NCBI RefSeq assembly: GCF_030913655.1
Contig: NZ_CP133189.1
Coordinates: forward strand, 2,666,001-2,730,000
Direction: 5' to 3'
Length of the DNA stretch: 64,000 nt
Source of the DNA: Clostridium sp. MB40-C1
Lineage (GTDB): Bacteria > Bacillota > Clostridia > Clostridiales > Clostridiaceae
The notes below the pieces were generated by a model. The model was not told where the DNA came from, did not search any database, and saw nothing but the letters and a program-made list of their open reading frames with translations. The stretch's first letter is position 1. Each line of letters opens with the position of its first letter. The position numbers and the translations under genes are program-made. Below are positions 7,270 to 43,868 of the stretch, in pieces.

Positions 7270-8096
7270 TATTTTACCTCCTATCTCTAGTAAATTTACT
7301 ACTTTTTAAATAAATTCTATTTCTTATTTTTATTTCCTTCAAATTAAATAATAATTTTTATAAATAATACATATTAGAAGAATATTACGACGGAATGAAT
7401 AACGGCATAGGAATAGGTTTTCTAAATATATGTAGTTATCCATTAAACCTTCAGCACGCAAAGAAATACTAAAGGTGTATTCTTCTAAAAATGCTACCCT
7501 CACTATGGGGAGTTCATTCCCCAGCTCGGCTGTCGGAGTCCGTTCCGACAATTACGCATTTTTAGAAACCTCCACATTAAGTATTTCTAGTTGCTACTTC
7601 AAAGTTTAATTGGCTAACTACATATATAAGAAAACCTTATTCCTATGCCTTAGTTTATTTATAAGTAATATAGTTTAATATGTATACTGGGGAGAAGAGG
7701 AAAACTATCAGTATTTAAAATTAAAAGGTTTATAATATATAATACTGTAATTATATAAATAGTATTTTAAAGTACACAAATCTATCAATATTCTCAGTAT
7801 CAATAATATTACTTTAATATTAAAACTTATTACAGCCTCCGGCTTAACATTTATCTTATTATGTTCAGAATATACTATAAATAAAAATACTTAATCTAAA
7901 ATTTAGTAATGTTTCCGCTAGCTACCGCTTTTAAGAGCTTATCAGCTCTTTTACTTAAGTCAAAAACAAAGCTCATAATGAAAAATTTAATTTTCATTAT
8001 GAGCTTATTCTTTTATTTAATTCAAAGATTTTCTGACACTAGGAAGAAAATCTTCCTTTACTATTCACTATTAAATAATGTTACGTCACAACATTA
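7270..8096. other. Intergenic region with composite repeat copy 1
   Basis: An 827-bp gap between pyrG and the 114-residue hypothetical gene. It holds repeat element A (7404-7649), a spacer with a short block near 7676-7705 that is also found inverted near 43307-43340, and element B (7921-8098). I see no protein gene; the 70-codon reading frame over element A is treated as part of the repeat. Confidence 0.85.
7404..7649 (-). repeat. Repeat element A, copy 1 (long palindromic element)
   Basis: 246 bp bounded by GGCATAGGAATA and TATTCCTATGCC. The two arms of about 90-100 nt are imperfect inverted repeats and fold into one giant hairpin. The apex carries two small stem-loops at 7507-7522 and 7532-7549. 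On the minus strand the second reads GTCGGA-ACGGAC-TCCGAC; the first has loop ATGAAC. The strand given is sense to the upstream gene pyrG. Other copies are at 12953-13199 and 43371-43615. Confidence 0.9.

Positions 8097-8098
<2 letters not shown>
7921..8098 (-). repeat. Repeat element B, copy 1 (four stem-loops, overlaps pyrG stop codon)
   Basis: A string of four stem-loops: AAGAGCT/AGCTCTT, a 15-bp stem beginning AGCTCATAATG, GATTTTCT/AGAAAATC, and a terminal AATAATGTT/AACATTATT hairpin with a 7-nt loop at 8074-8098. The terminal hairpin includes bases of the pyrG stop codon (8097-8099). Copies are at 13308-13497 and 42824-43018. Confidence 0.88.
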
Positions 8099-12724: not shown

Positions 12725-13495
12725 ATATTTCTCTCCTTACCCACCTTGTATATTCTTCATAATTTATTATTCCATATTATATCTCTATTGTGAACTACCA
12801 CTACTTATAAAATTTAGCGGCTTTGTGGTCAATATACCTAAATAACTTCCCCTTGTTTTTCATCAATTAAAATTATATACCAATCATAAAAATATGTGAA
12901 TAAAAAAAAATGAAGTTATACAATAGAAGAATGTTATGAAGTAATGAGTAACGGCATAGGAATAGGATTTTCTAAATATATGTAGTTATCCATTAAACCT
13001 TCAGAAAGCAAAGAAATACTAAAGGTGTATTCTTCTAAAAATGCTACCCTCGCTATGGGGAATCCATTCCCCAGCTCGGCTGTCGGAGTCCGTTCCGACA
13101 ATTACGCATTTTTAGAAACCTACACCTTAAGTATTTCTAGTTGCTACTTCAAAGTTTAATTGGCTAACTACATATATAAGAAAATCTTATTCCTATGCCT
13201 TGATTTTTCATGAATAATACAGTTTAAGCGGTAGTATATTATGTATATTTATTCAGTATTTTATAGCAACTATCTTTTAATCTTAAGTTAATAGATAACT
13301 CCCATAAGCTATCGCTTTTAAGAGTTTACCAACTCTTTCGTTTAAGTCAAAAACAAAGCTCATAATAGAAAATTAAATTTTCATTATGAGCTTATTCTTT
13401 TACTTAATTCAAAGATTTTCTGACATCAGGAAGAAAATCAACCTCTACTAGTACCTAGTACCTGACTCCTAGAAAAATGTTGCGTTACAACATTT
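12725..13495. other. Intergenic region with composite repeat copy 2
   Basis: A 771-bp gap between ypeB and ddl. The ddl-proximal 230 bp should contain its promoter, which I could not place with confidence. The rest holds element A (12953-13199) and element B (13308-13497), with a 108-bp spacer between them. Confidence 0.8.
12953..13199 (-). repeat. Repeat element A, copy 2
   Basis: 247 bp, bounded by GGCATAGGAATA and TATTCCTATGCC and closely similar to copy 1. Apical hairpins are at 13057-13072 (minus-strand loop ATGGAT) and 13082-13099 (minus-strand loop ACGGAC). The strand given is sense to the upstream gene ypeB. Confidence 0.9.
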
Positions 13496-13497
13496 TT
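13308..13497 (-). repeat. Repeat element B, copy 2 (overlaps ypeB stop codon)
   Basis: The same four stem-loops as copy 1. The first small stem reads AAGAGTT/AACTCTT, a paired change from AAGAGCT/AGCTCTT. The terminal hairpin (13473-13497, AAAAATGTT/AACATTTTT, 7-nt loop) includes two bases of the ypeB stop codon (13496-13498). Confidence 0.88.
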
Positions 13498-40051: not shown

Positions 40052-42820
40052 ATGAAGTACTTTAATGAAAAGAGTTCTGAAGTACTGGATAATTTAAATG
40101 TTACCTCCAGTACAGGATTATCAACTTCTGAGGCCAAATCTAGGCTTGAAAAGTATGGTCCTAATGAATTTACACAACAAGAAAAGGGTTCTCTATGGGA
40201 CAGTATTAAAGAAGCATTAACTGAACCAATGATGATTATTCTTCTTGCAGCAGCACTAATTAGTGCTTTAATTGGAGAAGTTCACGATGCTATTGGAATT
40301 GTTTGTGCTGTAGCTATAGGTATAACTATAGGTATTATAACAGAAGGGAAATCGCAAAAAGCTGCTGAAGCACTTTCAAAAATGACTGAAAATATAGAAG
40401 TAAAAGTGCTTCGTAATGGAAATGTAATGCAAATAAATAAAAGCGACTTGGTTCCAGGAGACATAGTTTTCATCGAAATGGGTGACATGGTTCCAGCTGA
40501 CGGAAGATTAGTTGAAAGTATTGATTTGAAAATTAGAGAGGACATGCTTACTGGAGAATCTGATGATGTAAGCAAAAACTCAGATGCTATTATTGAAATG
40601 GAAAAAATAGATTCAAAAGGAACAACAATTGTACAAGACCCTATACCAGCTAAACAAATAAACATGGTATTTGGAGGTACATTGGTTGCTTATGGTAGAG
40701 GTAAGTTAGTAGTTACAGCTACTGGAGACAACTCTGAAATGGGTAAAATAGCAAGTAACCTTCAAGAAAGTGATGTAGAAACACCTCTTCAAATTAAACT
40801 TGGAGATCTAGGTGGAAAAATTTCAAAAATATCTAGTGCTATTGCAGCTATATTATTTATAGTTATGCTTGTTAAAATGGTATTAGCACACACATTGTCT
40901 ATTAATACTTCAGGTATTTTACCATTCTTAAATTCTATAGAACCTATTAAAACAGCTTTTGTTGTCTGTGTTGCGTTAATTGTTGCTGCAGTTCCTGAAG
41001 GACTTCCAACAATGATTAATATGACTCTTGCAATAACTATGCAAAAAATGGCTAAAATCAACGCTCTTGTTACAAAAAAAGAGGCTTGTGAAACTATAGG
41101 TTCAGTAAGTGTTATATGCTCAGATAAGACAGGTACACTTACGCAAAATAGAATGACTGTAGAAAAAGTTTATCTTAATGGTGAATTTGTTGAAAGAGAA
41201 GAACTTAGCGACAGAAGTAATTACTTTATTGATAACTGTTTAATTAACTCTACTGCTGATTTAGAAATAACTGAAGGGGAAATTAAATATTTAGGTAGTG
41301 CTACAGAGGGTGCTCTTCTTCTTTATAATAACTCTTATGACTATGCTAAAGAAAGAGAAAATGCAAATATAATACATCAAATTCCTTTTACTTCAAAACG
41401 TAAAAGAATGAGTACTGTAATTAATGGAAGTGAAAACTGCACAGTTCTTACAAAAGGTGCACCGGAAGTTGTATTAGAGTTATGTAAATACGAACATGTT
41501 AACAATAACATTATTGAATTAACAGAAGAAAGAAAACAAGAAATATTTAATGATATTGAAGGACTTCAAAGAAAATCTATGCGTGTTCTTGGATTCTCTT
41601 ATAGAAGTATTAACGAAGAAGTTGCTATGGCATCAGAAGAAAGCATTATTGAGAACGACTTAGTATTTACTGGTTTTGTTGGAATAAAAGATCCATTAAG
41701 ACCAGAAGTTAAAGAAGCTGTTGAAGTTGCAAAAAAAGCTGGAGTATCTACAAAAATGCTTACTGGTGATAATATAAATACAGCTATTGCCATTGGAGAA
41801 GACCTTGGTCTTCTTGAAGGTGGTCTAAGAGCCGTTGAAGCTAGCTATATAGATACTTTATCTAGTGAGGAATTAAAAGAAGAACTAAAAACTATAGCTA
41901 TAGTTGCTCGTTCAAAACCAGATACTAAAATGAAGATTGTACAAGCATTACAAGAAGATGGCGAGGTTGTTGCAGTTACAGGAGATGGAATAAACGATGC
42001 TCCTGCCTTAACTAAAGCTGATGTTGGTATAGCAATGGGTATAGCTGGAACAGAAGTTAGTAAAAATGCTGCTGATATAATCTTAACTGATGATAGTTTC
42101 GGTACTATAGTTAAAGGTATTAAATGGGGTCGTGGAATCTACGAAAACTTCCAAAGATTTATTCAGTTCCAAATTACAGTTAATATTGTAGCTTTCTTAA
42201 CTGCTATTTTATCTGTTATATTTGACTTTGAAATGCCTTTTACAACTATCCAATTATTATGGGTAAATATTATAATGGATGGTCCTCCAGCTTTATCTCT
42301 TGGACTTGAGCCTGTTCGTAATGCAGTTTTAAATAGGAAACCAATAAATAGAAATGCAAGTATAATAACTAGTACGATGCTTAAATCTATGATATTAAAT
42401 GCAGTATATATTACAGCGGTAATTATGATACAAATGGTATTCAATCCTCTTGGAGCTGAAGTTCCAGCAAAAGGATTTAAAGGTCCAAATGAAATGGAAA
42501 CAGTATTATTTGCATTGTTTGCATTCAATGCTTTATTCAATGCTTTCAATTGTAGAGAATTTGGTTCAGATAGTATTTTCCCTTACTTTAAGGATAATAC
42601 TATAGCATTAAAAATAATTGGAGTTACTGCTGTAGTTCAAATATTTATTACAGAAGTATTTTCAGGATTCTTTAATGCTGTATCACTAAGCCCTATTATG
42701 TGGGTTAAGATAATAATTGCTTCCTCTTTAGTAATTATTATAAATGAAGTAATTAAACTTATACTTAGAATGTTTAAAAAAGATTCTAATATGTCATCAT
42801 CACAAAACACTGCAGCGTAA
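40052..42820 (+). CDS. Calcium-transporting P-type ATPase (type II)
   Basis: A 922-residue cation pump of the plasma membrane. Seen in order: the N-terminal cation-ATPase domain, helices 1-2, the TGES dephosphorylation motif (M-L-T-G-E-S), helix 4 with V-P-E-G-L-P, the phosphorylation site D in CSDKTGTLT (about residue 357), the nucleotide-binding K-G-A-P-E, TGDGINDAPAL, then six C-terminal helices. These are typical of type IIA/IIB Ca2+ pumps. ATG 40052 is preferred to GTG 40043 because AGGTGG is 5 nt upstream. Repeat B copy 3 follows the stop by 3 nt. Confidence 0.92.
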   Translation: MKYFNEKSSEVLDNLNVTSSTGLSTSEAKSRLEKYGPNEFTQQEKGSLWDSIKEALTEPMMIILLAAALISALIGEVHDAIGIVCAVAIGITIGIITEGKSQKAAEALSKMTENIEVKVLRNGNVMQINKSDLVPGDIVFIEMGDMVPADGRLVESIDLKIREDMLTGESDDVSKNSDAIIEMEKIDSKGTTIVQDPIPAKQINMVFGGTLVAYGRGKLVVTATGDNSEMGKIASNLQESDVETPLQIKLGDLGGKISKISSAIAAILFIVMLVKMVLAHTLSINTSGILPFLNSIEPIKTAFVVCVALIVAAVPEGLPTMINMTLAITMQKMAKINALVTKKEACETIGSVSVICSDKTGTLTQNRMTVEKVYLNGEFVEREELSDRSNYFIDNCLINSTADLEITEGEIKYLGSATEGALLLYNNSYDYAKERENANIIHQIPFTSKRKRMSTVINGSENCTVLTKGAPEVVLELCKYEHVNNNIIELTEERKQEIFNDIEGLQRKSMRVLGFSYRSINEEVAMASEESIIENDLVFTGFVGIKDPLRPEVKEAVEVAKKAGVSTKMLTGDNINTAIAIGEDLGLLEGGLRAVEASYIDTLSSEELKEELKTIAIVARSKPDTKMKIVQALQEDGEVVAVTGDGINDAPALTKADVGIAMGIAGTEVSKNAADIILTDDSFGTIVKGIKWGRGIYENFQRFIQFQITVNIVAFLTAILSVIFDFEMPFTTIQLLWVNIIMDGPPALSLGLEPVRNAVLNRKPINRNASIITSTMLKSMILNAVYITAVIMIQMVFNPLGAEVPAKGFKGPNEMETVLFALFAFNALFNAFNCREFGSDSIFPYFKDNTIALKIIGVTAVVQIFITEVFSGFFNAVSLSPIMWVKIIIASSLVIIINEVIKLILRMFKKDSNMSSSQNTAA

Positions 42821-42823
42821 CAT

Positions 42824-43018
42824 AATAATGTTGCGACGAAACATTATTATAGAGATTAATGAACAGAGAATAGTGAATAGTAAAGGAAAATTTTCTTCTT
42901 AGTGTCAGAAAATCTTTAAACTAAGTAAAAATAAGAGCATAATGAAAAATCAATTTTTCATTATGCTCTTTGTCGTTAGTCTAAGTAAAAGAGCTGATAA
43001 GCTCTTAAAAGCGATAGC
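42824..43018 (+). repeat. Repeat element B, copy 3 (3 nt after the Ca-ATPase stop)
   Basis: Inverted relative to copies 1 and 2 but again sense to the adjacent gene. The terminal hairpin AATAATGTT/AACATTATT with loop GCGACGA spans 42824-42848. The long stem reads AGAGCATAATG in place of AGCTCATAATG with matching changes on the other arm. Confidence 0.88.
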
Positions 43019-43280
43019 TTACGGATTTATATGAAGTTTTATGTTTATTTAACTATCTAAGAAGTTAAACTATAAACTGGAGCACAGACTCTTTTTTTAT
43101 AAGTATTAACGTTATAAACAGATATCATTTGCATAATTGCAACATTTAAACTATGACTTACAAACCTTTTAATTTTAAGGGTTTGTTTACTATTTATTTT
43201 ATAAACAAAATCTTAATTTCAAATGTTGAACGCTTGAAAAATAGTGCCTTATTTTAAAATAGCTTTTCTATTTAGTTTTA

Positions 43281-43308
43281 AGATTTTCTGACATAAAGAA
43301 GAAAATCA
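43281..43308. repeat. Partial element B hairpin
   Basis: A second copy of the AAGATTTTCT-N-AGAAAATC stem-loop only, in the opposite orientation to the one inside copy 3, next to the block shared with copy 1 (TGTATA followed by GGGGAG). It suggests rearrangement within the composite repeat. Confidence 0.6.
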
Positions 43309-43370
43309 TCCTTTAGTCTTCCTCTCCTCCCCAATATACATTTTTAACTATATTAATTATAAAAAATCAA

Positions 43371-43615
43371 GGCATAGGAATAAGATTTTCTTATATATGT
43401 AGTTAGCCGATTAAACTTTGAAGTAGCAATTAGAAGTACTTAAGGTGTAGATTCTAAAAATCCGTAATTGTCGGAACGGACTCAGACAGCCGAGCTGGGG
43501 AATGGACTCCCCATAGCGAGGGTAGGGTTTTTAGAAGGCTACGCCTTTAGTACTTCTTTGCGTGCTGAAGATTTAATGGATAACTACATATATTTAGAAA
43601 ACCTATTCCTCTGCC
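43371..43615 (+). repeat. Repeat element A, copy 3
   Basis: 245 bp, inverted relative to copies 1 and 2 and sense to the Ca-ATPase gene. Apical hairpins: 43470-43487 (loop ACGGAC, one stem mismatch) and 43497-43512 (GGGGA-ATGGAC-TCCCC). The right end is slightly degenerate (CCTCTGCC). Confidence 0.9.
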
Positions 43616-43868
43616 GTTATCTATTAGGTCGTAATCTTATTCTATTAAGTATGGATTATGCATTAATGCTGTTGAGAATAAATAAGGATATTCCTTTTGT
43701 ACATACTCCATATAAACAAGCCATTCATAAGAAATTAAATTATATTTCTTTATATTTCTTCATACTTTCTCCTCGTGTAATTAAATACACTTCTAAAATT
43801 ATATTATCATATTTCAAGATATTATTTATAGTTTACTGAATTTTAAAATTTATAAAACCTTAAAATAA

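Follow-up and report, generated by a model that had tools for sequence, protein, structure and literature searches.

The window analysed here is a stretch of 64,000 nt (G000:C1:2666001-2730000) of the single-contig, 3,893,327-base genome of Clostridium sp. MB40-C1 (G000), and the subject of this report is a repeat in two parts, A and B, which occurs in it three times, at the genes pyrG, ypeB and that of a Ca-ATPase, whose identities were confirmed. According to the original prediction, B starts at the stop codon of the upstream gene and is followed by a spacer (271, 108 and 352 nt) and A; this geometry was borne out at each of the three loci as stop codon, palindrome, B, spacer and A, with similar A-B gaps of 258, 104 and 342 nt. 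The palindrome (P), which constitutes the first hairpin, has the form AATGTTGC-NNN-GCAACATT (TGTTGC-NNN-GCAACA), frequently with longer AT-rich arms. Its 19-nt centre, located by palindrome search, starts 1 nt past the stop codons of pyrG (8077-8095) and ypeB (13476-13494) and lies 6 nt past that of the Ca-ATPase gene (42827-42845; G000:2708827-2708845). The hairpin had been said to overlap the pyrG and ypeB stop codons, which holds for its longer version, since the AT-rich arms extend beyond the 19-nt centre.

The anatomy of the repeat can be followed on the copy behind the Ca-ATPase gene, which lies on the plus strand and has P as its left terminus. B starts with a left arm and continues with a AAGCTCATAATG.../...CATTATGAGCTT hairpin, to which many copies add an inverted right arm; here, the B search covers the left arm and the stretch following it (42869-43025), hairpin comparison places the terminator-like hairpin at 42933-42970, and the right arm (43265-43321) is an inverted copy of 42875-42931 (inverted repeat I10). 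This right arm, which had been missed before, sits about 46-53 nt ahead of A, a 250-nt long hairpin (43368-43617; folding energy -107.9 kcal/mol, z -10.55). A terminates in ...CATTAC, followed by GTCGCAACATT, i.e., one half of P, likewise absent from the earlier description; by terminus comparison, this right terminus (GTCGTAATCTTATTC...) is found at 43628-43645. Given the right B arm and the half-palindrome at the far end of A, A and B form one unit that is bounded by P and half-P. The other two copies lie on the minus strand, with B at 7910-8098, A at 7402-7651 and the half-palindrome at approximately 7375-7393 at the pyrG locus, and with the same parts at 13307-13497, 12951-13202 and approximately 12924-12942 at the ypeB locus. 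Complete copies measure about 0.6-0.9 kb, while many others are internally shortened. A pattern search demanding AATGAAAA...TTTTCATT yielded 26 distinct B hairpins across two species, in which, inspected by eye, variants are mostly compensated on both stem sides, with few mismatches; the pairing seen in the window copy is mostly retained by the variants of other copies. Between 42780 and 43680, three terminator-like sites (judged by shape only) compare with 0.3 in shuffled sequences; promoter-like sites in the element are not in excess (3 versus 5.0).

Searches for A, B (E<=1e-3) and P mapped 64 sites in the G000 genome, two of which (rows 33 and 34 of the site list) are probably one element. 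P was found at 43 places with up to two mismatches and at none with a reversed-pattern control; 39 places were kept and four weak ones (558535, 642794, 1148406, 2374261) dropped. The sites comprise A+B+P (23), A+B (10), A (12), B+P (4), B (3) and P (12). That A and B always travel together does not stand, with no B match at 12 of the 45 A sites and no A at seven of the 40 B sites; by eye, a short B remnant is present at least at one of these 12 (2945964). What does hold genome-wide is the placement at gene 3' ends. With simple open reading frame calls and approximate element ends, which apply to all counts of placement and orientation, an element end lies no more than 15 nt from a stop codon at 40 of the 45 A sites, far above chance, considering that this is true of 678 of 7218 intergenic bases of the window (9.4%; three element gaps excluded). 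Nineteen A sites are flanked by convergent genes, 12 are tandem with the B end at the stop codon, 13 are tandem with the A end there, and one is neither; at the latter, the sole A site between two gene starts, an alternative small open reading frame ends at the element. An orientation sense to the gene with B at the stop codon is, hence, not a rule. Of the tandem copies in which both parts are present, 12 have B and eight have A at the stop codon, and among complete tandem copies with the left palindrome (n=12) the numbers are eight and four, which amounts to a slight lean towards the predicted orientation. The genome-wide map thus contains both A and B apart from each other and units in other orientations, the two findings that had been named as refuting the original prediction.

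Clostridium brassicae (G003) is the nearest relative examined that has A. Among the matches listed, all 25 of its A loci match A, B or P sites of G000 by at least one flank; 32 further G000 sites were sought with short flank pieces, of which 30 were found and 29, those obtained as loci, compared. Overall, the comparison covered 55 sites. Where both species have a match to A (26 sites), the orientation is the same in 14 and inverted in 12, A itself being an imperfect palindrome, so that the orientation of fragments can mislead; at the 15 sites where each species has calls for A as well as B, it is the same in six and inverted in nine. The element behind ypeB is reversed in C. brassicae, and at site 1, too, its orientation is opposite between the two species. 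For only one of ten full-length pairs (L154/1357019) is the orthologous A the nearest relative, with the remaining pairs ranking 8-44 of 48, and one non-orthologous A pair is 99.2% identical across the two species, the flanks of whose sites are mostly 85-96% identical. Behind pyrG, no such element was found in six other species examined. At two C. brassicae loci (L138, L142), the flanks of two different G000 A sites adjoin, and these may be rearrangement breakpoints at A copies. At site 43 (G000:C1:2888250-2889170; L115), the A copy is, by eye, apparently interrupted by sequence with a transposase-like reverse reading; in C. brassicae (L133), A is uninterrupted at this site.

At six A sites of G000, C. 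brassicae has a short gap free of the element, and at three of these (sites 6, 19, 40) P stands alone. The reverse case is site 62, with P alone in G000 and A in C. brassicae, while at sites 15, 21, 48 and 50 P stands alone in both species. Where the alleles of the two species were aligned by eye (sites 1, 6, 40, 62), the outer halves of P align and divergence begins at the centre of P. Site 31 retains an A remnant in C. brassicae, and sites 10, 26 and 32 carry longer sequence there, without a match to A or B.

P also occurs in genomes of the genus that lack a DNA match to A. With at most one mismatch, 51 copies were found in Clostridium sp. ZS2-4 (G006), 18 in G004, three in G001 and one in G007, versus none with the reversed pattern; G002 and G005 have no copy. 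On this sequence comparison, the target P is taken to be older than the element. Forty-four P rows of G004 and G006 (two places are counted twice, and G006 is represented by 24 of its 51 copies) all adjoin, by open reading frame calls, a gene 3' end on at least one side, albeit not always near to it. With an A tract before it and a T tract behind it, P looks like a bidirectional terminator. In many of these rows, tandem 7-nt-like units (CCAGTAA, CCAATCA) follow P, e.g., in L218, L224 and L228 (G006) and in L236 and L237 (G004), and in L218 a B-like arm follows P as well. The units resemble the heptamer repeats known as STRR of cyanobacteria, presumably as a matter of resemblance only.

The A part has the features of a structured RNA. 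Twenty-nine aligned copies fold as a single long stem that carries two hairpins at its apex, with 16 of 78 pairs changed on both sides. In the A core, aligned from 25 copies, two-sided changes affect 84 cells as compared to 27.2 (standard deviation 4.7) in shuffled alignments, none of 500 of which reached as high, and 13 of 43 pairs show a change on both sides (9.1 in shuffles), these shuffles not modelling the relatedness of the copies; in slid controls, the pairing of the core is lost. The loops are mostly AYGGAC, and 26 of the 29 copies have GGA in the first loop, with the same number for the second; in the window copy, the core was placed by alignment and covariance at 43427-43562 on the plus strand, with loops ACGGAC and AUGGAC. 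As regards the strand of A, G-U exceeds A-C by cells (50 versus 27), yet hardly by columns (24 versus 22). A covariance model of A matches five of 200 genomes of the family, i.e., G000, C. brassicae and, with single matches, G101, G155 and G002, the last three scoring 38.2, 45.2 and 32.7 bits, respectively, against the Rfam family TwoAYGGAY (RF01731; gathering cut-off 43 bits). Tested on 13 loci with A copies, RF01731 matches four end to end, all below the cut-off; in G000, nine places were obtained among the matches listed, one at 43.9 bits and eight at 36.5-40.5 bits (in genome searches, at most 13 candidates per genome were scored). A is therefore taken as a divergent member of TwoAYGGAY. 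A TwoAYGGAY-like RNA is also seen in the 16S-23S rRNA spacer of G002 (L253, 1492-1646), and a purine riboswitch (L061, 2470-2571) and a T-box leader (L144, 3487-3725) lie near A copies.

Across the family, RF01731 matches occur in 20 of 200 genomes (18 above the cut-off) and in none of 14 control genomes, with at least nine places in G173 and at least 13 in G174 (Clostridium sp. KNHs214). Twenty places of these two genomes were examined, 18 of which showed both ends and thereby delimit elements of 302-311 bp with inverted ends GATTAWCCCACAA. Flanking duplications of 7-8 nt accompany 14 of the 18 (among mismatched flank pairs, two of 306 attain 7 nt), and the element is a carrier of TwoAYGGAY RNA of the kind of a miniature inverted-repeat transposable element (MITE). 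It is also placed elsewhere than beyond gene 3' ends, six of the 18 lying between two gene starts. Terminal inverted repeats are clear in these elements; in G000, half-P stands at both ends and is, by our reading, partly derived from the target. At 18 other TwoAYGGAY loci there is no conserved neighbour gene, with just two locus pairs sharing a similar protein (31-40% identity). Distant members carry GGA in loop 1 (18 of 21) and loop 2 (15 of 21), one row being unscored and a competing 3-bp stem having been chosen in L270, L271 and L276; no GGA-containing loop was detected in L252. The genome of Clostridium sp. ZS2-4, which has no DNA match to A, contains one TwoAYGGAY copy by covariance model (L278, 1360-1660), one side of which, ATGTTACGACATAAC...GGCAT, resembles the A terminus and half-P.

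We conclude with good, though not full, confidence that A+B is one non-autonomous mobile element whose target is the terminator-like palindrome P behind stop codons. The element would enter at the centre of P (stem TGTTGC/GCAACA, 3-nt loop), just past stop codons and often between convergent genes, moved by a transposase acting in trans, and as P is symmetric, either orientation would result. Targeting of P is the likely reason for the placement at 3' ends; of the two explanations offered in the original prediction, an insertion mechanism directed to 3' ends therefore stands, refined to a terminator-like palindrome, while a module of the 3' untranslated region (3'-UTR) in sense to its gene does not. 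With a full P at the B end and the terminator-like hairpin of B, the genes on either side would probably not lose their termination signal. A, presumably transcribed, is a long hairpin that at its apex resembles TwoAYGGAY RNA, with GGA in both hairpin loops.

Several observations weigh against this conclusion. No clear target duplication is seen in G000. The other three empty sites in C. brassicae are without P, site 3 having another hairpin and sites 0 and 55 none, and the G000 copies at sites 0 and 55 themselves lack P or half-P. The extensive sharing of sites could equally reflect old insertions followed by recombination. As to the RNA, pair types in the A core show no excess (31 versus 30.8), most A copies do not reach the RF01731 cut-off, and Rfam does not list the window copy at E<=5, the window as a whole giving no match at gathering level. 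Furthermore, a transposase with the ends of the element was not found among the two families searched, Y1_Tnp and Transposase_20. The latter, and with it IS110/IS1111 as mover, was rejected, as G000 gave no match and C. brassicae a single one; plasmid or phage origin was rejected as well, as neither collection gave a match (records near G000 possibly being left out there).

The Y1_Tnp family comprises the REP-associated tyrosine transposases (RAYTs; REP, repetitive extragenic palindromic), by which a REPIN-like system could be mobilised. G000 has two such matches and C. brassicae has one (L185, L186, L187; open frames of 316-318 amino acids), and these, together with palindromic ends and non-autonomous repeats, speak for resident RAYTs as movers, an account we regard as unlikely, given that no P adjoins the three RAYT loci, save for one poor match with four mismatches at L186, and that L185, read by eye, is flanked by a different repeat, ATTAACCGTCCC, with GTTAGTTAG repeats also around it. 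RAYT as mover was, hence, rejected on the ground that the genes are present without an adjoining P.

More weight is due to a scenario of single insertions in the common ancestor, in which in-place inversion and gene conversion via the inverted half-palindromes and dispersed copies took place later; we hold it to be a serious alternative that is nonetheless rather less probable than not, and one partly compatible with a mobile element in P, for a mobile origin is needed by both. G000 and C. brassicae have largely the same set of sites, one old pair (L154/1357019) is still made up of closest relatives, and at 11 of the 55 compared sites one flank alone was found at the C. brassicae locus, some of these being contig ends, while others may be rearrangement breakpoints at which copies lie. 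Against it stand the P-only alleles at orthologous sites and the near-identity of non-orthologous copies across species whose flanks differ by several percent. The reading as a functional 3'-UTR or terminator module, selectively kept behind particular genes and in sense to them, could invoke the placement at stop codons, the terminator-like B hairpin with its mostly compensated variants and the slight lean to B at the stop codon in eight of 12 complete copies. Most of its predictions, however, already fail: orientation is balanced over the tandem A sites (12 versus 13, or 12 versus eight with both parts) and reversed between the sister species at 12 of 26 sites; in C. brassicae, P alone or a short, unrelated hairpin can stand at the same place; and pyrG lacks such an element in the six other species. 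We consider it highly improbable.

A mobile A+B unit bears likeness to several described systems, in each case as far as the available portions of the papers go. Insertion sequences targeting REP sequences likewise insert into extragenic palindromes (PMC1525189), whereas A+B has no internal transposase gene and its target is a terminator-like palindrome of Clostridium. The palindrome-associated transposable elements (PATEs) and SMR-A of Haloquadratum are transposase-free repeats, too; SMR-A inserts within palindromes without target duplication, and terminal-only remnants of PATEs arise through deletion of the core (PMC3119063). A+B differs from them in that it is bacterial, lies at gene 3' ends, and contains both a structured RNA and a hairpin resembling a terminator. 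REPINs are non-autonomous, palindromic and intergenic as well (PMC3116915), but A+B is much longer, and no link in cis to a RAYT was found at the three RAYT loci. Searches of the literature on repeats, terminators and heptamers retrieved no such clostridial repeat. With TwoAYGGAY RNA (RF01731; clan CL00106, which also holds CsrC), A shares adjacent hairpins with AYGGAC loops atop a long stem; unlike the RNA as catalogued, A is a dispersed repeat that occurs dozens of times and is joined to P and B. Mobility of TwoAYGGAY RNA is not mentioned in the parts of the literature consulted.

TwoAYGGAY has been predicted as a CsrA-binding RNA of Clostridia, validation of which is called work in progress in that report (PMC4333381). 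Paired ANGGA loops at a spacing of 21 nt, close to the optimum of 18 nt for CsrA dimers, are described in PMC4894983; in the A copy of the window, the two GGA start 26 nt apart. CsrA (PF02599) is encoded in all eight genus genomes, with three matches in G000, and its presence throughout does not, therefore, explain the limited spread of A. Binding of CsrA by A RNA is a reasonable hypothesis, and A may soak up this global regulator. Going further, we tentatively suggest, as a possibility that is still open to considerable doubt, that the TwoAYGGAY RNAs found in Clostridia act as CsrA sponges that are mobile and spread by transposition, either via symmetric terminators or in MITE-like elements. 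No paper joining CsrA with MITE terms was found in a literature search.

If A+B is such a mobile element, an orphan Rfam RNA would gain a genomic setting, with TwoAYGGAY-type RNA residing on mobile elements in two clostridial settings, and the patchy spread of TwoAYGGAY would have to be read differently. It would also follow that a mobile element can live harmlessly in a genome by entering terminator loops while bringing its own terminator-like hairpin, and the titration of CsrA by RNA in Clostridia, as predicted in PMC4333381, would become testable. Should the RNAs indeed be mobile sponges, the dose of an antagonist of the regulator would be set by a mobile element, and symmetric terminators would serve as reusable docking sites through which, in one lineage, the element rotates.

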